From Sporomusa sphaeroides DSM 2875 (GTDB lineage: Bacteria; Bacillota; Negativicutes; Sporomusales; Sporomusaceae): a DNA stretch of 64,000 bases. The stretch covers positions 4,581,501 to 4,645,500 of the forward strand of contig NZ_CP146991.1 of NCBI RefSeq assembly GCF_001941975.2. The letters are read 5' to 3'. Shown here one piece after another: positions 8,141 to 59,136 of the stretch (within the stretch, counting starts at the first letter, position 1; the number at the start of each line of letters is the position of its first letter). The notes beneath the pieces were generated by a model, which saw only the letters and a program-made list of their open reading frames with translations, was not told where the DNA came from and ran no database searches. The translations under genes and the position numbers were made by a program.

Positions 8141-8440
8141 AAAACGCCCCTATGGCAGATATATCAATCTGTCCATAGGGGCGCTAAACGCGCGGTACCA
8201 CCCTACTTTGGGCTCATTTAGCCATGACGTTATTCATGGCTACCGGATAACGGCCGGTACCGCCACTGTCTAGTGCGTATTGCATACATACGCAGGTCAA
8301 CAGCAGAGTTCCTGGGCGAGTATTGCTTAGACCACTGCACCGGTTCACACCAGCCACCGGCTCTCTGGGCAGGATGTTAAGCTTGCTCCCAATCATCACT
8401 ATTATCACTATTTGCGCAAAAAGGTTATAAAAATACCCTG
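8141..8440 (-). promoter_or_regulatory. T-box leader, probably leucine-specific
   Basis: On the minus strand the conserved T-box AGGGTGGTACCGCG lies at about 8190-8204. It is preceded by a long stem I whose apical part reads AGAGAGCCGGTGGCTGGTG. It is followed by a perfect terminator hairpin (8145-8183, arms CGCCCCTATGG / CCATAGGGGCG) and T-rich sequence just before ilvN. Uncharged tRNA should pair with the leader and favour antitermination. The 3' side of stem I contains CTC twice (in AATACTCGCC and GGAACTCTGC). CTC is a leucine codon, which fits the operon, but I could not fold the specifier loop to choose between them. Confidence 0.92.
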
Positions 8441-28870: not shown

Positions 28871-29014
28871 GGCCTTGTTTCCCACGACGGACCACAGCAG
28901 ATACCAGGCACCCTTACGGCACATAAGAAGTATCACTTAGCGCTGCTTCCTTCCGGACCTGACGCGATTCATGAGTTCCTATTGCGTAAGACCCGGCACT
29001 GCTACAGTCCGGCC
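28871..29014 (-). ncRNA. ffs: Signal recognition particle RNA (4.5S-type)
   Basis: The minus strand contains the conserved apical motif GTCAGGTCCGGAAGGAAGCAG, here cited by its core GGTCCGGAAGGAAGCAG, followed by CGCTAAGTG, and the opposite strand of the helix GTGCCTGGTATCTGCTGTGG. Ends pair roughly as GGCC...GGCC, giving about 144 nt. The RNA pairs with Ffh to target membrane proteins. Exact ends are approximate. It lies between dnaX and tRNA-Ser, as in many Firmicutes. Confidence 0.88.
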
Positions 29015-29051
29015 TAGAAAACAAAAAGCCGTATACCGGCCTTGAATTTTA

Positions 29052-29141
29052 TGGCGGAGAGAGAGGGATTCGAACCCTCGGTACAGTTTCCCGTACACAC
29101 GCTTTCCAGGCGTGCTCCTTCAACCGCTCGGACATCTCTCC
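29052..29141 (-). tRNA. tRNA-Ser (anticodon GGA)
   Basis: 90 nt including an encoded CCA. Acceptor arms GGAGAGA and TCTCTCC, anticodon loop CTGGAAA with GGA, a long variable arm (GTACGGGAAACTGTAC) and T-loop GGTTCGAATCC. Class II tRNA structure is complete. Confidence 0.95.
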
Positions 29142-31311: not shown

Positions 31312-31449
31312 CCTGACGGCCTTTCGACCCCTTGCTTTGGCCTGCGAAGTTAGCTGACGGGTAGGATGACAAGAGAAAACATCCCTTTTGTCACAAGGAC
31401 AAAATTAACCCCAAAAGTGGTTCCTCCGCTTCCATTACGGAACTCGGCC
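31312..31449 (-). promoter_or_regulatory. c-di-AMP riboswitch (ydaO-yuaA type)
   Basis: Minus-strand landmarks in order: CCGAGTTCCGTAATGGAAGC, GGAGGAACCAC, TTGGGGTTAAT, and the hallmark CCCGTCAGCTAACTTCGCAG near 31345-31365. The order and spacing match the ydaO class. It ends about 50 bp before kimA, with GGTCGAAAGGCC and a TCTTTTTC tail that could form an expression platform. Confidence 0.88.
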
Positions 31450-31635
31450 TTATATTGTGTATGCATTGTTATCTTACTGCTTTTCTAATCAAACATAAAG
31501 TCCTGCTACACTTGGCTTATGCCTGCTTATCGCTGCCTATAGGCACAGAACACAATAGGCTTGACGGCTCGCAACAGCACGCTATTTTCCGCCCTCGCAC
31601 TCGGTCTTTCATTACGGTTGATATACGAAAAATAT

Positions 31636-50880: not shown

Positions 50881-52680
50881 TTATCGAGCTTTCTCGAATT
50901 GCAGGCATTGGGCAAACAGCCTTTCATATCCTGACGATGCTCCCAGTTCCATATAATCCATTTGCTTGGCCAATGCCTCAAGCTCTCGCTTTACTTCAAC
51001 AGACATAAGAGCCATATAGGCTCCTGTTTTCGAGGAGTTTCCCACATAATGAATCTTATCCTCAACCTCTGCCGGCAAAATCTCTGTTCCCACCAAGCTG
51101 TCGGCCGGCAAATGGGCTCCAAACTGCCCCGCAATCATGACCTTATCCAATTGATTGATATGCAGCTCCGCCTGCCTTAACAGCGCATGAAATCCTGAGA
51201 GAATCGCTCCCTTGGCCAATTGAACCTGCCGGATATCTCCCTGGGTAATTCCCAAAGGCTCCTGACCGTCTTTTAAAATAAATTCGCGCTTCTTACCATC
51301 CACCCGCAGCAGAGGATATCGGTAATCCGTTTCTTCCAGTTCTTCTTTCTTAATAAAACTGCCATTCTTTTTAACCAGTCCGATACGAAGCAATTCTTTT
51401 ACAACCGCCAGAATGCCGCTGCCGCATAGGCCTACCGGTGCCTCATCACCGATGACCTTCAGCTCAATCCCCCCGGCAGTAATTGCCACATCTTCTATGG
51501 CCCCCACTGCCGCTCTCATGCCGCAGCTGATATTCATTCCTTCCAGGGCCGGCCCCGCAGCACAGGAGCAGGACATCAGCCGGCCGTTTTTAGCTAAAAC
51601 AATTTCGCCGTTGGTGCCGATATCAATAAACAGGAGATTCTCCCTGCTTTTTTCCAGCTGGCAGACATAAGCCCCGGCTACGATATCCCCGCCGATATAG
51701 GAGGATACCGATGGCAGACAATATACCCTTGCGCCCGGGGCTCCCTGTAAGCCAATATCGCTTGCCATTATATTTTTGGCTTTGACAAAGACCGGGGCAT
51801 ACGGGGAGCGTCCGATAGGCGCCGTGTCAATACCCAGCAGGAAGTGCATCATCGTACAATTGGCAGCAATTGAGATCTCATAAATGTTTTGCCTGCTGAC
51901 AGCCGCCTTACCGCACATGTCTTCAATCAGCGAATTGAGCCCTTCAACAATTGTCTGCTGCAGTTCTTTGCGGCCGTCTGCCGGCTTTTCCAGGCTATAG
52001 GAAATTCTGGTTAACACATCAAGGCCAAATTTCTTTTGCGGATTGAGCATGGAAGCGGCAGCCAGCTCATCACCGGTTTTCAGATCAATCAAAGCGGTTA
52101 CCACCGTTGTTGTGCCAATATCAACCGCCACTCCATAAATAAGCGCCGTTGTATCACCTGTCTCGATCCCGATTAAATCCGTACCGTTAAAAACACCGGT
52201 AACCTTCCCCTCCCCGGTGTCCAAATGCTGCAGCAATCGCCAATCCAGGTCTTCCCTGCCCAGGGCATGGCAGAGAGAATCCTCATAGGCACTGGGGTTT
52301 TCCAAGGTTGGCTTTTCTATTTGCAAGACTTTTTTGGAAATCCCCGGATTCATGCGAAAATCAGGCATATAGCCGGCTGTCAGTATTTCATGCTTTCTTT
52401 CTGTTTGCAGTGTTTCGATCTCGATATCCTCTTCCGGCACTACCAGACAGGCCAGTCTAACACCTGCAGCCATTTCTTCCTTTTTCAAAAGCTTTTTTTC
52501 CGTCTCGGAGACAGCAGGCAGCTGCCCCTGCAACAGCCTGATTTTGCATTTCCCGCAGGAGCCTTTGCCGTTGCAGGGATTATCCACAAAGACCCCATTG
52601 TCCAGCAGAAGCTGCAGCAAATCCTTGCCCGGGTCGCACTGAATTCTCTTCCCCTCATTCGTAATGAAAATATCAGGCAT
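50881..52680 (-). CDS. RACo-type corrinoid activation protein (2Fe-2S / ASKHA)
   Basis: 599 residues. N-terminal 2Fe-2S ferredoxin domain with CNGKGSCGKC and a fourth cysteine in RLACLVV (residues 35-80). After a linker, an actin-like (DUF4445) domain binds ATP: YGVAVDIGTTTVVTALID near residue 190, LFIDIGTNGEIVLAK near 345 and GLCGSGILAVVKELL. In methyltransferase systems it re-reduces inactive Co(II) corrinoid to Co(I) using ATP. The reading frame overlaps the upstream gene by 8 bp; it is the last gene of the operon. Confidence 0.9.
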   Translation of the reverse strand: MPDIFITNEGKRIQCDPGKDLLQLLLDNGVFVDNPCNGKGSCGKCKIRLLQGQLPAVSETEKKLLKKEEMAAGVRLACLVVPEEDIEIETLQTERKHEILTAGYMPDFRMNPGISKKVLQIEKPTLENPSAYEDSLCHALGREDLDWRLLQHLDTGEGKVTGVFNGTDLIGIETGDTTALIYGVAVDIGTTTVVTALIDLKTGDELAAASMLNPQKKFGLDVLTRISYSLEKPADGRKELQQTIVEGLNSLIEDMCGKAAVSRQNIYEISIAANCTMMHFLLGIDTAPIGRSPYAPVFVKAKNIMASDIGLQGAPGARVYCLPSVSSYIGGDIVAGAYVCQLEKSRENLLFIDIGTNGEIVLAKNGRLMSCSCAAGPALEGMNISCGMRAAVGAIEDVAITAGGIELKVIGDEAPVGLCGSGILAVVKELLRIGLVKKNGSFIKKEELEETDYRYPLLRVDGKKREFILKDGQEPLGITQGDIRQVQLAKGAILSGFHALLRQAELHINQLDKVMIAGQFGAHLPADSLVGTEILPAEVEDKIHYVGNSSKTGAYMALMSVEVKRELEALAKQMDYMELGASSGYERLFAQCLQFEKAR

Positions 52681-53710
52681 CGATGTTCGCAGCTCCTTTA
52701 GTTACAGCCTCCAGCATTGATTTTACATTTTTCAAAGGGGATTTCATCCCAAGACCGCAGGCAGGAGAGATAATATTGACTCCGTCCTGCACACATCTCT
52801 CAGTTAGTGCGGCGACTTTTCCCGGTTCGCCAAATTCAATGGCGTAGGTACTGACATTACCCATCAGCAGCCTGTCTCCCAGATTTTTTCTGGCTTCCCG
52901 CATGCTGACAATGGCATCAAAGCTCAACACATGGCTTTTTATTTGGGCTGTTCCCGAATATACCTTGCGCATTTGTCCGCAAATGTGGACAATGGTATAC
53001 TTATTTTCACTGTGAATACTGTCGACAATTTTATTAATATATTTCACGGCAAATTCTTCAAAGAGCTTGGGTCCCAGAATTTCACCCGTACCGCTTGGAT
53101 CGGAAATGGCTATAATATCCGCCCCGGCCGCTATTTGCCGTTTGGCAAATGCGATCAGTTGGCCGGTGACAAACTCCATAAACTCATGGGCCTTGGCATT
53201 ATTTTTTCTTAGTTCTTTATAAAACACAACAGGCTCCATCAGCGAGCTGGCCATGCTGATGGGGCCCGTTATATTCCCGATGACCGGTACGTCATTTCCC
53301 TTGGCTTTTAATAATTTAATGGCCTCAACAACTACGTCCGCCCTTCCCTGTCCCTGACGGTTATTGGCTGCGACAAGCCTTTCCCACTCATTTACAGAGG
53401 TGATGGCATATTCTACAACATGGGGCTCATAAAAATTTGTTCCCAAATCCACCTTCGCACCCAAATTCTCCGCTTCAATGGTCATGCAAAAGGGAACGCC
53501 ATAATTTTCAAAGCAGCCTTTTTCATAAACCGCCGCTGCTAAGTCTGCCATCATCCGGGCATTCGTATGGGCCTCCGGAAACCGGATTCCCGCCTCTTCC
53601 ATCAGCTCCGCAGTGATCATATTCATCATTCCCCCGGGACAAATGCAGGGGGGTCTGTCAATCTGTTCCTCTCTGAAAACCTTATTCAACCGTTCCTTTG
53701 GCAATAACAC
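52673..53710 (-). CDS. Uroporphyrinogen decarboxylase-family (MtaA/CmuA-like) methyltransferase
   Basis: 345 residues, TIM-barrel. It keeps the zinc-binding pattern of methylcobamide methyltransferases: YTIVHICGQ (H-x-C) and IISPACGLGM (distal C). The N-terminal LNKVFREEQIDRPPCICPGG is typical of the MtaA/CmuA branch rather than haem-pathway HemE, whose arginine motif is missing. It probably moves a methyl group to or from the corrinoid protein encoded 20 bp upstream. GTG start with GGAGG 8 nt before it. Confidence 0.88.
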   Translation of the reverse strand: MLLPKERLNKVFREEQIDRPPCICPGGMMNMITAELMEEAGIRFPEAHTNARMMADLAAAVYEKGCFENYGVPFCMTIEAENLGAKVDLGTNFYEPHVVEYAITSVNEWERLVAANNRQGQGRADVVVEAIKLLKAKGNDVPVIGNITGPISMASSLMEPVVFYKELRKNNAKAHEFMEFVTGQLIAFAKRQIAAGADIIAISDPSGTGEILGPKLFEEFAVKYINKIVDSIHSENKYTIVHICGQMRKVYSGTAQIKSHVLSFDAIVSMREARKNLGDRLLMGNVSTYAIEFGEPGKVAALTERCVQDGVNIISPACGLGMKSPLKNVKSMLEAVTKGAANIDA

Positions 53711-53730
53711 AGCTGCACCCTCCTTTACCT

Positions 53731-54387
53731 CTAGGCAACATTAAGCAAGCCTTTGATCAGTTTGACTGCTTCAACGGCATTGGGAGAATAACCATCCGCC
53801 CCAATGATATCGGCAAATTTCTGGGAGATGGGTCCTCCGCCAATAATCACCTTAACCTCCTCCCTCATGCCCGCTGCTGTTAACAGCTCAATTACCGTGC
53901 CCATGCCCCCCATCGTTGTCGTCATCAGGGTTGCCATACATACAAAAGAGGCGTTTACCTCCCTGGCTTTATCCACAAAGCGCTGCAACGGAACGTCCCT
54001 TCCCAGATCAACCATCTCGAAGCCGGCGGTTTCCATCATAATCTTCACCAGATTCTTGCCAATATCATGGGTATCTCCCTCAACGACCCCAATGACACCC
54101 TTTATCTTTTCTTTCCCTGCTTCGTCTGAAGGAAGATGGGGTCTTAAAATATTCAGCCCCTCATACATGGCGTCTGAGCACAGCAATACATCGGTAACAT
54201 AATACTCTTCATCTTCATATAATTGGCTTGCACGGTTCATACCGTCCACAAGGCCCCCCATAATGCCGTCGAAAGCCGGATAGCCTGCTGCTACATATTC
54301 CTGACAGGCTGCAATTACGTCATCTTCTTCCATGTCCACAACACCGTCTGATAATCTTTTCAGTAATTCTTCTTTAGATACTGCCAT
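53731..54387 (-). CDS. Corrinoid-binding methyltransferase protein (MtaC/MttC-like)
   Basis: 218 residues. An N-terminal helical cap (about 1-85, KRLSDGVVDMEEDDVIAAC) and a C-terminal cobalamin-binding Rossmann domain with the base-off/His-on motif GDTHDIGKN (D-x-H-x-x-G) near residue 103, followed by GGGPISQKFADIIGADGYS. It carries the methyl group on cobalt between the methyltransferases of this operon. Gene flanked on both sides by UroD-family genes. Confidence 0.94.
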   Translation of the reverse strand: MAVSKEELLKRLSDGVVDMEEDDVIAACQEYVAAGYPAFDGIMGGLVDGMNRASQLYEDEEYYVTDVLLCSDAMYEGLNILRPHLPSDEAGKEKIKGVIGVVEGDTHDIGKNLVKIMMETAGFEMVDLGRDVPLQRFVDKAREVNASFVCMATLMTTTMGGMGTVIELLTAAGMREEVKVIIGGGPISQKFADIIGADGYSPNAVEAVKLIKGLLNVA

Positions 54388-54429
54388 AAGTTTCTCCTCC
54401 CCATTTTATCATGTATTAAATTTATTCTA

Positions 54430-55503
54430 CTAGCTCATGAAATTTTTGGGCTCCAAGGGCCATTTCCCATATTTCCTGGCAGAAGCCATAAATTGATCAA
54501 CATTTTCCAGCGGAACATTGCCGGAAAGATCACAGCCTGATGCTAAAATGTAGCCGCTGGGACTGTCATAGGCTTTTTGAATACAACTTTTAACCGCCAG
54601 GTCCACATCCTGGGTATTCCCCAAAATTAATACCTCTACAGGGTCTACATTCCCCAGAATCGGAACCTTGCCCCCTGCTACCTGCTTGGTATAGGCCAGA
54701 TCCACTTTGTTATCGATACTCAACATATCACAGCCTGATGTCACCATGTCTGCCACAATGGCTGTCGTATCTCCGCAAATATGGTAGCATACCATTCCTT
54801 TGGCCTCATGGATATCCTGCATCAAATCTATCGTATAAGGCAAAACGAATTCCAAATACTGTTTGCGACTGAGGATCGTCCCGGAAGCAATGGGGTCACA
54901 CAACAAAATCACAGCCCCGGCTTTAATAAATTCCCGGTAAATCGTCTTTAAGCCTTGAGTACAGAAACGGAGCAACTGGTGTACCTTCTCCGGATTTTTT
55001 CTGGTTGCCCTCAGCAAACTCTCTGTTTGATAGATGCTGGCAGCCGCCGTAAAAGGACCGGATATCAATACCCCTGTCGGAACCTCTCTTCCCAGTTCAT
55101 TAATAAGAATTTTAGTTGCTTCCACATGGAGCTGAAGTTTCCTGTCATTCTTCAGTTCCAGCTTGGCCATGTCCAGCTGGTCCACATGATTTAGATCGTT
55201 CAGGGCATAACTCATAATTGCCGGGATGGAGTCTTCCGGATCATTCATCACAGAACCCAGGGCTATCCCTACTCCATGCAATCCGTATTCGATGATGGTT
55301 AAATCATTGCCGAATCTTTTATAGGCAGCCACCTGAGCCTTGGCTTCATTTAACGCACTGCTCCTTTTTTCCTTATGGGTCATTCCCAAGGCCAGGCCGG
55401 ACATGGAGCAGACCACCGGCATAGCCAGAATTCTGTCCATAGGCTTTCCTGTCATAAAAGCGGCCAGCCGTTCGTTAGGGGTCATGTGATCATCTTTATG
55501 CAT
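54430..55503 (-). CDS. Uroporphyrinogen decarboxylase-family (MtaA-like) methyltransferase, second
   Basis: 357 residues. TIM-barrel with zinc ligands in VCYHICGDTT (H-x-C) and LASGCDLSG (distal C), and PVCSMSGLALG at the start, as in MtaA-type enzymes. It is distinct from the other UroD proteins of the cluster. One of the two complete H-x-C enzymes may demethylate the substrate and the other deliver the methyl to an acceptor (tetrahydrofolate, CoM or other). RBS GAAGGAG 10 nt upstream of the ATG at 55503. Confidence 0.88.
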   Translation of the reverse strand: MHKDDHMTPNERLAAFMTGKPMDRILAMPVVCSMSGLALGMTHKEKRSSALNEAKAQVAAYKRFGNDLTIIEYGLHGVGIALGSVMNDPEDSIPAIMSYALNDLNHVDQLDMAKLELKNDRKLQLHVEATKILINELGREVPTGVLISGPFTAAASIYQTESLLRATRKNPEKVHQLLRFCTQGLKTIYREFIKAGAVILLCDPIASGTILSRKQYLEFVLPYTIDLMQDIHEAKGMVCYHICGDTTAIVADMVTSGCDMLSIDNKVDLAYTKQVAGGKVPILGNVDPVEVLILGNTQDVDLAVKSCIQKAYDSPSGYILASGCDLSGNVPLENVDQFMASARKYGKWPLEPKNFMS

Positions 55504-55576
55504 AGGTCACTTTCTCCTTCATTTCCTAATGAAATCCTAGTGAAAATTTGCTGTTGTTTTGCGTCTTTTTTTTAAA

Positions 55577-56446
55577 TTAAAGCAGCTCAAGGGTTTTAAC
55601 TATCCCGTTTTGCAAGACAAACTCTCTGTTTTTAACGCACATTTGCCCAACAAATTTCGTTTTTCCTACTACTTTTTGACAAGCCGAAAAATAGTTTATA
55701 GGCGCACCCAGATCAATGTCCTGCCAAACGGCTTTCTCTGTCCCCAGCAAGGCAAAGGCGGTTTTAGGACAAAGCAGCAGGAGACTTTCATTGCCGAGGA
55801 TTGTTTCCACTCTTTTAAAGAAAGGATAAGTAAAAAGTTCCACTGTTTTTGCCGACATCTCAGGTCCCAGGATATTCAGGCCGCCGGTAGAATCACCATA
55901 ACTGAACATAGTGACTCCTGCCTGCTGTGCTGCCTCCACATAGCGCAGCATTTCCCTCTGCAATTTATCAAAAATAAGCTTCATCTGCTCCGGCTTTTTG
56001 CGAAATATCTTGAAAATATGCCGGGGCTCCATTAATATATTCAGAATTGTATAAGGTCCTGAAATGTATAAAACTACCTGTTCGCCTTTGTCCTGCAAAG
56101 CTTGGCAGGCTTTTAGCACTTCGGCGATACGCCCTTTCGAATAGTCAATTTCAGGCAGGTCCAATAATTCTTCTGCTGTTATGCAAATATAGTCTTCCCC
56201 TCTTGGGCCTGCGTTTTCATCACCATAATTAACATGCCCTCCCAGTGCTTCGCCTTCGACCGTATGACAAAAGGGCAATTCACAAAATTCCGTTTTGTCA
56301 TAGTCCTTCAAGGCCAGAGCCAGTTGGGCCATACCCTGCCACGTTTTATAGGCCTGAGGAAATTCTAAATCCAGTCCCTTTACGGCGTCCTTATTAATTC
56401 CCACAGAATTGACATAGGTACACTGAAAGTCAACAATTTTACTCAT
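55577..56446 (-). CDS. Uroporphyrinogen decarboxylase-like protein, third and divergent
   Basis: About 289 residues, shorter than its two relatives. N-terminal AQLALALKDYDKTEFCELPF and HTVEGEALGGHVNYGDENAG resemble the UroD fold. The H-x-C zinc motif is not kept: the equivalent position reads LLLLCPKTAF and the distal one KFVGQMCVKN. It may be a substrate-binding or inactive partner, or use a different metal site. The ATG at 56446 is chosen (GGAGG at 8 nt). Follows the GTPase gene by 16 bp. Confidence 0.8.
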   Translation of the reverse strand: MSKIVDFQCTYVNSVGINKDAVKGLDLEFPQAYKTWQGMAQLALALKDYDKTEFCELPFCHTVEGEALGGHVNYGDENAGPRGEDYICITAEELLDLPEIDYSKGRIAEVLKACQALQDKGEQVVLYISGPYTILNILMEPRHIFKIFRKKPEQMKLIFDKLQREMLRYVEAAQQAGVTMFSYGDSTGGLNILGPEMSAKTVELFTYPFFKRVETILGNESLLLLCPKTAFALLGTEKAVWQDIDLGAPINYFSACQKVVGKTKFVGQMCVKNREFVLQNGIVKTLELL

Positions 56447-56462
56447 GCGGCCCTCCTCCCGG

Positions 56463-57377
56463 CTATTTGCCAAACCACTCCGCTATAGCTTCTTTATTTA
56501 AATCAGTACCGATTACAACCACCTTGGCCGCCTTGTCCTCAGCCAGGTATTCCCACCGGCAGTGCTGAGGCGTAAAGTTAAAAAGAATGGAGTGCTGTGT
56601 ATCAAGCTCCAAAATTCCTTTGGCTCGCAAAATGCAACCGTGTTCCTTGCCGCTTAGGGCTGCCAATACTTTTTCAAGCTCAGCTTCAGAAAAAACCTTT
56701 GGCTTCGCAATCGAGAGACTGTCAAACACTTTGGCGGCAGGCATTACATTCATTCTTTCTTTCGCGTCAATACCAAAGCCATGTGCTGTATGTAATATTT
56801 CCATAAGTTCTTCGCCGGCATGAGAATACCAATCTTCCTTAACAATAAACGCAACCGGGTTGATTGTGCTTATTTGGGCAATTACTTTTTCCAGCTCCTG
56901 CTGTTCCATTTGGTTCATATGGCTGAGGAAAATTATGTGGGCATTGGCAATTTGATCTGAATAGAAACTGCCGAAGTTTTCTGAATAATCATCAAATGCT
57001 GCTGCATCTACGATGGTAATCAGATGCTTTATTTGAATAGCCAAATCTCCCGTTTGCCGAATTCCCTGGCAAACCTTGATAATGTCCGAAAGGCTGCCAA
57101 CTCCCGAAGGTTCTATTAAAATATGCTGCGGGTGATAGCCTAACACCAGCTCTCTTATAGCCTTCTCAAAGTCCTGTACAACGCTGCAACAGATACAGCC
57201 GGCATATATTTCTTTAACCGGGAACTCCTTGGGCAGCAAATCCCCGTCAACACCGACTTCACCAAATTCATTTTCTATTAAAGCAATTTTTCCCTCCAGG
57301 TTGGGAAGGAGCTTTTTTAGGAAAGACGTCTTGCCAGCCCCTAAAAATCCGGAAACAATACTTATCTGAGTCGTCAT
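56463..57377 (-). CDS. COG0523 (CobW-type) GTPase metallochaperone
   Basis: 304 residues. P-loop IVSGFLGAGKTSFLKKL at residue 7, IENEFGEVGVDG, the metal-binding cysteine motif YAGCICCSVVQDF near residue 60 and ILIEPSGVGS. A C-terminal CobW_C domain follows. These proteins use GTP to deliver metal (Zn or Co) to client enzymes. As first gene of the operon it could load zinc into the UroD methyltransferases or help cobalt/corrinoid insertion (inference). RBS GAGGT upstream. Confidence 0.9.
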   Translation of the reverse strand: MTTQISIVSGFLGAGKTSFLKKLLPNLEGKIALIENEFGEVGVDGDLLPKEFPVKEIYAGCICCSVVQDFEKAIRELVLGYHPQHILIEPSGVGSLSDIIKVCQGIRQTGDLAIQIKHLITIVDAAAFDDYSENFGSFYSDQIANAHIIFLSHMNQMEQQELEKVIAQISTINPVAFIVKEDWYSHAGEELMEILHTAHGFGIDAKERMNVMPAAKVFDSLSIAKPKVFSEAELEKVLAALSGKEHGCILRAKGILELDTQHSILFNFTPQHCRWEYLAEDKAAKVVVIGTDLNKEAIAEWFGK

Positions 57378-57506
57378 ATTGTGTACCTCTTTGTAATATG
57401 CGATAAACTCCCATTACTAGTATGCTTTAGCATTAATAGAATGTCTAATTGCAAAATTGTATCACTGCTATGCTTTTGGATAGAAATTGTCGATTTGTTA
57501 CAACGC

Positions 57507-57574: not shown

Positions 57575-58462
57575 TTAAGCAGTCTTGGTTCGAAACTCCA
57601 TCGGACAAAGGCTGTTTAATTTTTTCTGTAGACGTTCGTAGTTATAGAAATAGATATACTGCTCGATCGCGTTTTTAAGATCCTCAAATGTAGGATATTT
57701 ATGAAGGTAATACTTCTCACATTTCAATGTGCCCCAAAAGCTTTCCATAGGTCCATTATCGATGCATTTGCCGACCCGGGACATACTTTGGGTTAGTCCC
57801 TTCGAAACAAGCCGTTTTTTGAAACGTAACGAGGTATATTGAAAGCCGCGATCGCTATGCAGCATAGGTGTAGCTCCAGGGGTTGTTTTCAGAGCCAGTT
57901 TTAGTGTTTTAAAAACAAGCGGATTATTGTTGGAATGTCCTATTACGTAAGAGACGATGGACTTGTCATATAAGTCCAAAATCGCACTCAGATATGCTTT
58001 TTGACCATTTCCATATTTGAATTCAGTCACATCTGTAACCCATTTTTCATTGGATGTTTGAGCAGTAAATTGTCGGTTTAATAAGTTTTCAGCTATATGT
58101 TGTGGTGTAGATCGAATATAACTTTTTCTCTTTCGACGAATCACAGCTTTGATCCCAGCAACCTTCATTAAACGATAGATTCGCTTATGATTAACTGGAT
58201 AGCCGATTTGGCGGGTTACATGAATAGTAAGTTGGCGGTATCCAAAGATCCCTTCTACTTTTTCATAAAGAAGAAGCATCGTATCTAGAAGTTCCTGGTT
58301 TACTTTCTCACGAGGACTCTCTTTACGGTTTAGCCACTTGTAATAGCTGGAACGGGGAAGCTGTAACAGTTCGCAAAGAAGATTCACACTAAAACCATGT
58401 TCGCTTTGCACCGATTGAATGGCACGATAGAGATGGTCCTGCCGTGTCTGACTTAGCTTCAC
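57575..58462 (-). CDS. IS3-family transposase OrfB (DDE integrase domain)
   Basis: 295 residues: N-terminal HTH_21 (IQSVQSEHGFSVNLLCELLQ) and the rve catalytic core with DDE residues in EKWVTDVTEFKYGNG, MLHSDRGFQYTS and CIDNGPMESFWGTLKCEKYY. It would act as an OrfAB fusion. Its GTG start overlaps the orfA stop. Intact as read. Confidence 0.92.
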   Translation of the reverse strand: MKLSQTRQDHLYRAIQSVQSEHGFSVNLLCELLQLPRSSYYKWLNRKESPREKVNQELLDTMLLLYEKVEGIFGYRQLTIHVTRQIGYPVNHKRIYRLMKVAGIKAVIRRKRKSYIRSTPQHIAENLLNRQFTAQTSNEKWVTDVTEFKYGNGQKAYLSAILDLYDKSIVSYVIGHSNNNPLVFKTLKLALKTTPGATPMLHSDRGFQYTSLRFKKRLVSKGLTQSMSRVGKCIDNGPMESFWGTLKCEKYYLHKYPTFEDLKNAIEQYIYFYNYERLQKKLNSLCPMEFRTKTA

Positions 58463-59136
58463 CGCCTTTCGAACTGTTGTAACTTTTTTAATAAAGCATT
58501 TTCTGCCCGAAGGCGCTCATTTTCATATTCTAGTTTCTTCATCGCCAGTTTTTGACGCTCGATATCAGTGAGTTCTTCCGGTGCTTTTTTACGCCCACGG
58601 CCATCTTTTAAAGCCTCTTCGCCACCAGACTCATATTTAGCTACCCATTGATATACTTGCTGATAGGATACCTAATACTGCGTTGCTGTACCCTGGTAAT
58701 CGTGGTTATTTGCTAAGCAATACAGGACAATATCAATCCGTTCCTTCCAATCGGTAGACCGTCCTTTTGTCATAGTGCTTGTCCCTCCGGTTCCTGTGGA
58801 TTTAAAGCTACTATGACTATTATACTTTTTAATCCAATTGCGCAGTTGACGACAACTCAATATTTTATACTTTTCTATGATTTCTTTCTGAGACGTTTCT
58901 CCAGAAAGAAATTCATGCACTGCAGAAAGCTTCAGTTCTGCTGAGTAACTCTGATTCTGGTATCTATCTTCCAGACCTTCGATTCCATGATGTTTCAGAC
59001 GATGTATCCATCGCTTTACGGTTGTAATATCAACGTCATATTTATTGGCAACAGATCGCTGGCTTGATTCTCCTTGCCCAAACTCATAGATGATTGCCAA
59101 CTTTTCTGCACCGCTATATCGACTCTTCTTAGGCAT
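58459..59136 (-). pseudogene. IS3-family OrfA, interrupted by an in-frame TAG
   Basis: Residues 1-154 (MPKKSRYSGAEKLAIIYEFG onward) contain two HTH units and end at TAG (58672-58674). The same frame continues past it as VSYQQVYQWVAKYESGGEEA and the Leu-rich coil NERLRAENALLKKL, ending in TGA at 58459. The single amber therefore splits a full-length OrfA of about 225 residues. Read-through is not excluded. Confidence 0.8.

Follow-up and report, generated by a model that had tools for sequence, protein, structure and literature searches.

The closest described relative of the locus discussed here is the type 1 mlp gene cluster (Kountz & Balskus 2023, PMC10418091), which comprises three MtaA-like UroD-family proteins (Mlp1, Mlp2 and Mlp3), a corrinoid protein and a Ram/RACo activase, with no tetrahydrofolate (H4folate) methyltransferase. 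In Clostridium ljungdahlii, the cluster spans CLJU_RS09360-09380 and, going by the locus tags, runs in the order Mlp1, Mlp2, corrinoid protein, Mlp3, Ram. In that study, recombinant ClMlp2 took the methyl group off methylcobalamin when given selenide, and did so at a lower rate when given sulfide. A zinc site made of one histidine and two cysteines (His-Cys-Cys) is taken in that paper as a signature of sulfur or selenium chemistry, from which several Mlp1 proteins deviate, and the sulfur function is tied to MarHDK; what Mlp1 and Mlp3 do, and which molecule accepts the methyl group, is left open. Sporomusa does not appear in the main text of that paper, but an earlier version names it twice. 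Here, we analyze a six-gene cluster from Sporomusa sphaeroides DSM 2875, located in a 64,000-nucleotide stretch of its genome (hereafter, the window; the cluster itself lies at C1:4632381-4638877), which, judged by its parts and their order, is a type 1 mlp gene cluster, i.e. a new copy of an already described kind.

Namely, the cluster occupies positions 50881-57377 of the window and consists of six open reading frames (ORFs), all on the minus strand, which encode, in the order of transcription, a COG0523/CobW-family GTPase, Mlp1, Mlp2, the corrinoid protein, Mlp3 and a RACo-type activase (Table 1). The intergenic gaps are 16, 73, 42, 20 and -8 bp, with the start of Mlp1 taken as the ATG at 56446; this codon, preceded by GGGAGGAGGG and lying nine codons past the listed TTG at 56473, is the most likely start. 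Both the component set and the gene order are those of C. ljungdahlii, with the difference that the operon in the window is headed by the COG0523 gene; the main text of PMC10418091, supplements aside, makes no mention of such a GTPase. As in the published type, the genes run in one direction, with no divergent gene between them and gaps of less than 2 kb, and neither profile matches nor tblastn place an H4folate methylase homologue within 20 kb. Mlp2 and Mlp3 each carry H-I-C and a later cysteine, that is, the full His-Cys-Cys site. Mlp1, on the other hand, has L-L-C in place of H-x-C, with its first cysteine retained and the second one in GQMC, which is within the deviation that PMC10418091 allows for several Mlp1 proteins. 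The initial annotation of this DNA had already read the same-strand arrangement with short gaps, the histidine-less and the two complete UroD sites, the GDTHDIG motif of the corrinoid protein and the six protein labels, which the Pfam domains bear out. What does not stand is its proposal of an undescribed demethylation system, because the cluster agrees with the type 1 mlp one in its parts and their order; the pairing with a COG0523 gene, too, can be found in PMC2770081. The details that are new are the six-gene order across two bacterial classes, an Mlp1 subclade with a cysteine-only site and the COG0523 gene ahead.

Table 1. Features of the mlp operon and its upstream region, in window coordinates.
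Feature	Position	Strand	Remarks
COG0523/CobW-family GTPase, metallochaperone-like	56463..57377	-	304 aa; Pfam cobW 124 bits, CobW_C 38 bits
mlp1, short UroD-family	55577..56446	-	289 aa; URO-D 69 bits; Leu in place of the zinc-site His, both Cys retained
mlp2, UroD-family methyltransferase	54430..55503	-	357 aa; URO-D 258 bits; His-Cys-Cys
Corrinoid protein	53731..54387	-	218 aa; Pfam B12-binding and B12-binding_2; GDTHDIG
mlp3, UroD-family, nearest MtaA of the three	52673..53710	-	345 aa; Pfam URO-D; NCBIfam PRK06252 413.7 bits (cut-off 244); His-Cys-Cys
RACo/Ram-type corrinoid reductive activase	50881..52680	-	599 aa; RACo_C_ter 238 bits, Raco_middle 211 bits, Fer2, RACo linker domain
Upstream stretch, putative promoter region	57412..57496	-	70/85 bases same as ahead of the S. 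ovata operon (pairwise alignment)

What does the cluster do? We believe, with fair though not high confidence, that it is a type 1 mlp system for the corrinoid-dependent demethylation of methyl-selenium compounds or, failing that, of methyl-sulfur compounds, and it is likely that methyl transfer to a thiol accompanies demethylation. Such a function, which is probable on the strength of sequence comparison, would proceed through the following steps. RACo would reduce the corrinoid protein to Co(I), as is known for its family. Mlp2 would move the methyl group of the substrate to the corrinoid, as suggested by the published ClMlp2 assay and by the fact that Mlp2 varies independently of the other components (see below), and Mlp3, the most MtaA-like of the three, would then transfer it from there to an acceptor thiol. 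Mlp1, which is short, keeps two cysteines and belongs to a histidine-less subclade, may act as a second substrate enzyme or as a helper, this being the weakest step of the scheme. The COG0523 GTPase may supply or guard the metal of the UroD proteins; the metal role initially ascribed to it is plausible. Finally, the selenide released in this way would go into the making of selenocysteine; the genome has two selA genes.

The initial annotation had also held that no known first methyltransferase accompanies the cluster and that UroD proteins fill the methyltransferase roles, and both statements appear to be right. Namely, the sole MtaB match in the genome is at C1:3085461, not near the cluster, while the closest of the nine MTTB matches is located at position ~4.09 Mb, with none within 500 kb; neither a methanol system of the MtaABC kind, which we rejected in the absence of an MtaB in the cluster, nor a methylamine or betaine system is therefore indicated. 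Of the 15 pterin-binding matches in the genome, the closest is located at position 4.94 Mb, approximately 300 kb from the cluster. A pterin-type methyltransferase II is the general pattern of UroD-type O-demethylase clusters (PMC10418091), and the candidates of that type (MtvABC, Odm, Vdm) were rejected, as the window cluster does not contain one. The methyl donor itself had been proposed to be an O- or S-methyl compound. The first half of this proposal is unlikely, because Mlp2 and Mlp3 keep His-Cys-Cys, the sulfur/selenium signature of PMC10418091; a methyl-selenium or methyl-sulfur donor is likely. It is true that UroD-family O-demethylases and CdmB are known (available text of PMC13222342), and an O-demethylase or a haloalkane demethylase of this superfamily could be imagined here as well. 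However, the same His-Cys-Cys sites, the lack of a pterin-type methyltransferase II within 300 kb, the top match of Mlp3 to MtaA and the weak match of Mlp2 to CdmB (9rui, E 7.1e-6) all speak against such an enzyme, and we consider it very improbable. HemE was rejected on the NCBIfam hemE scores of Mlp2 (74.1 bits) and Mlp3 (76.2 bits), compared with a cut-off of 302.95, Mlp1 being unlisted. CmuA, in which a UroD domain is fused to a corrinoid domain, was rejected as well, as the three window UroDs show Pfam URO-D alone, with no fused corrinoid domain.

The relationships among the UroD proteins were assessed by maximum likelihood, in a tree with 84 UroD rows, the named C. ljungdahlii and Methanococcus proteins not being among them. 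In this tree, the three window UroDs fall into separate clades, each together with proteins from other such clusters: Mlp1 into a 24-row clade (support 100/100), Mlp3 into a 21-row clade (95/93) and Mlp2 into a 37-row clade (100/99) that includes other UroD types. The nearest rows are those of Sporomusa ovata, Anaerospora hongkongensis and Acetoanaerobium noterae. The initial annotation had set against its own proposal a tree placing all UroD proteins within one characterised system, and the grouping seen here comes close to that outcome as far as clusters of this kind, rather than the named proteins of the published ones, are concerned. In our ligand table, His-Cys-Cys is conserved in 19/19 Mlp2 rows and 21/21 Mlp3 rows. 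Among the 24 Mlp1 rows, ten of which come from pyrrolysine clusters with PylB adjoining, both cysteines are present throughout and the histidine in 18; the six rows lacking it are those of the window, S. ovata, Anaerospora, A. noterae, relative G064 and one copy of relative G086 (G and L numbers denote genomes and loci, respectively). The top match of all three window UroDs in the PDB is M. mazei MtaA (4ay7), with identities of 23.6% for Mlp1, 27.0% for Mlp2 and 32.3% for Mlp3 (E 2.6e-49 for the latter). An AlphaFold2 model of Mlp1, built on a three-row alignment, has a mean predicted local distance difference test (pLDDT) score of 50.5, with residues 181-289 below 50.

The conserved six-gene set that the initial annotation proposed to look for does exist: S. 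ovata DSM 2662 and A. noterae, the latter a member of the class Clostridia, have the same six genes in identical order, and in this sense the block is more than a chance assembly. Five genes of S. ovata are 82-89% identical to those of the window, while in the assembly the reading frame of its corrinoid protein is interrupted (L055 12060-12578; 172 aa, 92% identical to the window protein over 154 aa). In A. noterae, identities are 42% for the COG0523 protein, 52% for Mlp1, 78% for both Mlp2 and the corrinoid protein, 66% for Mlp3 and 59% for RACo, and the block is preceded by an NMT1/THI5-type ABC transporter and followed by an additional Mlp2-like gene. The A. noterae record (L057, NZ_CP154629.1) is labelled as a plasmid, yet has 2.63 Mb and four annotated features, so that the label appears doubtful. 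In Anaerospora, Mlp1, Mlp3 and RACo are 85-92% identical to those of the window and the corrinoid protein 60%, whereas Mlp2 is a differing one (33%). Over identity matrices of 12 hand-chosen clusters, with one Mlp2 taken from each where several were present and the S. ovata corrinoid protein left out, the divergences of the corrinoid protein, Mlp3, RACo and Mlp1 covary (rho 0.41 to 0.75), while that of Mlp2 correlates with none of them (rho -0.11 to 0.09). Because its divergence follows no other component, Mlp2 fits the part of an exchangeable, substrate-side enzyme. The alternative that Mlp2 and the corrinoid protein are swapped as a pair, both differing in Anaerospora, was rejected (rho -0.08 between the two, 55 pairs).

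Is the window copy still functional? IS3-like transposase ORFs (57575-59136) begin 198 bp ahead of the operon's first gene and the histidine of Mlp1 is lost, and one could argue that these are marks of a decaying cluster. That said, all six frames are open, the histidine is also absent in three close relatives, one of them from another class, and the upstream bases largely match those of S. ovata (Table 1), a conservation from which we take this stretch to be, probably, the promoter region. Decay is, in our view, the least probable of the explanations considered here, and we give it hardly any weight. The first IS3-like ORF upstream of the operon has its own frame ended by an early stop.

Would the substrate then be a selenium or a sulfur compound? 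Selenium is favoured by the ClMlp2 assay, in which selenide reacts faster than sulfide (PMC10418091), and by the induction of the M. maripaludis counterpart under selenium depletion (PMC11097638; see below). The double-cubane reductase is tied in the literature to selenium, and in five of ten relatives (G015, G064, G114, G141, G214) its gene, present above cut-off in one to three copies per genome, is found at most 12 kb from mlp1. In Anaerospora, in particular, mlp1, mlp3 and RACo come after yedF, a gene of the cysteine-desulfurase family, and the double-cubane gene with its activase. This proximity argues against a cluster of the same kind that acts on methyl-sulfur rather than methyl-selenium, serving methionine salvage or the acquisition of sulfur from methyl sulfides, with NMT1/THI5-type ABC transport in relatives. 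For such a role speak the NMT1/THI5-type (sulfonate/thiamine-precursor-like) transporters that adjoin the clusters in A. noterae, Anaerospora and a second locus of the window genome (L002), as well as the sulfide activity of ClMlp2 (PMC10418091) and the lack of an adjoining selenium gene in the window copy. However, the sulfur function is tied to MarHDK in PMC10418091, tblastn finds no MarDK match in the window, and it is L002, a separate cluster, that bears MarDK-like genes. A methyl-sulfur role thus appears possible but rather unlikely.

L002 (235-12926; G000:C1 ~1090235-1102926) is the second mlp-type cluster of the window genome. It contains an NMT1-type ABC transporter, DUF1847, RACo, Mlp3 and Mlp2, with a divergent set made up of a pair of nitrogenase-like (MarDK-like) genes plus those for a UroD and a corrinoid protein. 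The cluster fits the published sulfur type. Its Mlp3 belongs to a sister subclade with MarDK-linked copies (weak support, 88/67), which also holds G214.

Several observations weigh against selenium as the substrate element in the window. First, neither the window cluster nor that of S. ovata has a selenium gene as a neighbour, and in the window genome approximately 3.6 Mb separate the window cluster from the double-cubane set, which adjoins a different Mlp2-corrinoid pair. Second, G214, whose Mlp3 falls in the MarDK-linked subclade, has selA and a double-cubane gene, and for this reason the published split between selenium and sulfur is not clean here. Third, selA occurs in 15 of the 19 genomes with an Mlp1-model match at 1e-25, several of these matches being Mlp3-like (the exceptions are G086, G094, G148 and G339), and in seven of the eight genomes whose short Mlp1 is unambiguous (the exception is G086), but it is widespread anyway, being found in 257 of the 398 genomes of the phylum sample; the co-occurrence is, given this baseline, uninformative. 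Finally, the link from the window proteins to the assayed enzymes runs through the clades of relatives only.

The distant double-cubane set (L059 4522-14835 and L001 2209-6860; G000:C1 ~988500-1006900) consists of yedF, a cysteine-desulfurase-family gene, a tetrathionate-reductase-like molybdoenzyme and the double-cubane reductase with its activase. It leads on to genes for an ABC transporter, an Mlp2 and a corrinoid protein, with no mlp1, mlp3 or RACo, whereas in its Anaerospora counterpart these three follow directly. DUF5714 proteins are encoded both beside a solitary Mlp2-corrinoid pair of the window genome (L001 14942-15646) and beside the S. ovata cluster (L055 15839-16534).

The COG0523 GTPase, for which no NCBIfam model scores above its cut-off, is encoded at five of the 13 non-pyrrolysine Mlp1 loci, namely those of the window, S. 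ovata, A. noterae, G114 and G214, some contigs ending nearby. Locus L069 (G158), whose Mlp1 match carries four stops, was excluded here. One can imagine that, in this lineage, the GTPase and the histidine-less Mlp1 form a dedicated pair, in which Mlp1 would no longer be a zinc methyltransferase and would use its two invariant cysteines, possibly together with a different metal or in order to hold selenide or selenol, the six-gene block moving between classes as a self-contained module for cleaving methyl-chalcogen bonds. We regard this as doubtful: the histidine-less Anaerospora copy has no COG0523 match within its stretch, and the COG0523-bearing clusters of G114 and G214 retain the histidine. 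A strict link between COG0523 and the loss of the Mlp1 histidine was rejected, with COG0523 accompanying three of the six histidine-less rows. A second UroD-COG0523 pairing is seen in the pyrrolysine clusters of relatives (L043, L045, L046, L047, L052, L053), which hold corrinoid proteins, RACo, a short, histidine-keeping Mlp1-like UroD and PylB, followed by a UroD of 450-455 aa and another COG0523 gene; the UroD of this size class in L045 shows a weak C-terminal thioredoxin-type match.

As for the surroundings, the operon is followed downstream by genes for a GNAT acetyltransferase and a MalT-like regulator. The window also contains an ordinary set of minus-strand RNAs: a T-box leader (8174-8405), a small signal recognition particle RNA with tRNA-Ser (28899-29141) and a c-di-AMP riboswitch (31324-31459).

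The mlp family links corrinoid chemistry to the recycling of selenium and sulfur in anaerobes, and the window copy adds testable detail to it, namely the cysteine-only Mlp1 subclade and the metallochaperone gene conserved ahead in two classes. Strains of Sporomusa are acetogens kept in the laboratory. Among the other known systems, the coenzyme M methyltransferases MtaA, MtbA and MtsA are close in that M. mazei MtaA is the best PDB match of the window UroDs, but MtaA has MtaB and MtaC as partners, and there is no MtaB near the window cluster. PMC2770081, in print since 2009, describes COG0523 genes as neighbours of corrinoid methyltransferases in Methanosarcina, M. maripaludis and C. botulinum; the likeness of COG0523 subfamily 13 to the window gene is one of co-location with corrinoid methyltransferase genes, gene position alone being compared. 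Finally, SdmABC of Methanococcus voltae and M. maripaludis has been proposed to free selenide from methyl-selenides (PMC10418091 and the available text of PMC11097638), and the latter source gives a 5.6-7.8 log2-fold increase of the M. maripaludis counterpart under selenium depletion. Together with the work on C. ljungdahlii, the Sdm system points towards methyl-selenium (or methyl-sulfur) compounds as what is demethylated. As far as these descriptions go, SdmABC is archaeal and coenzyme M-linked, while the window system is bacterial, and both combine a corrinoid protein with UroD methyltransferases.

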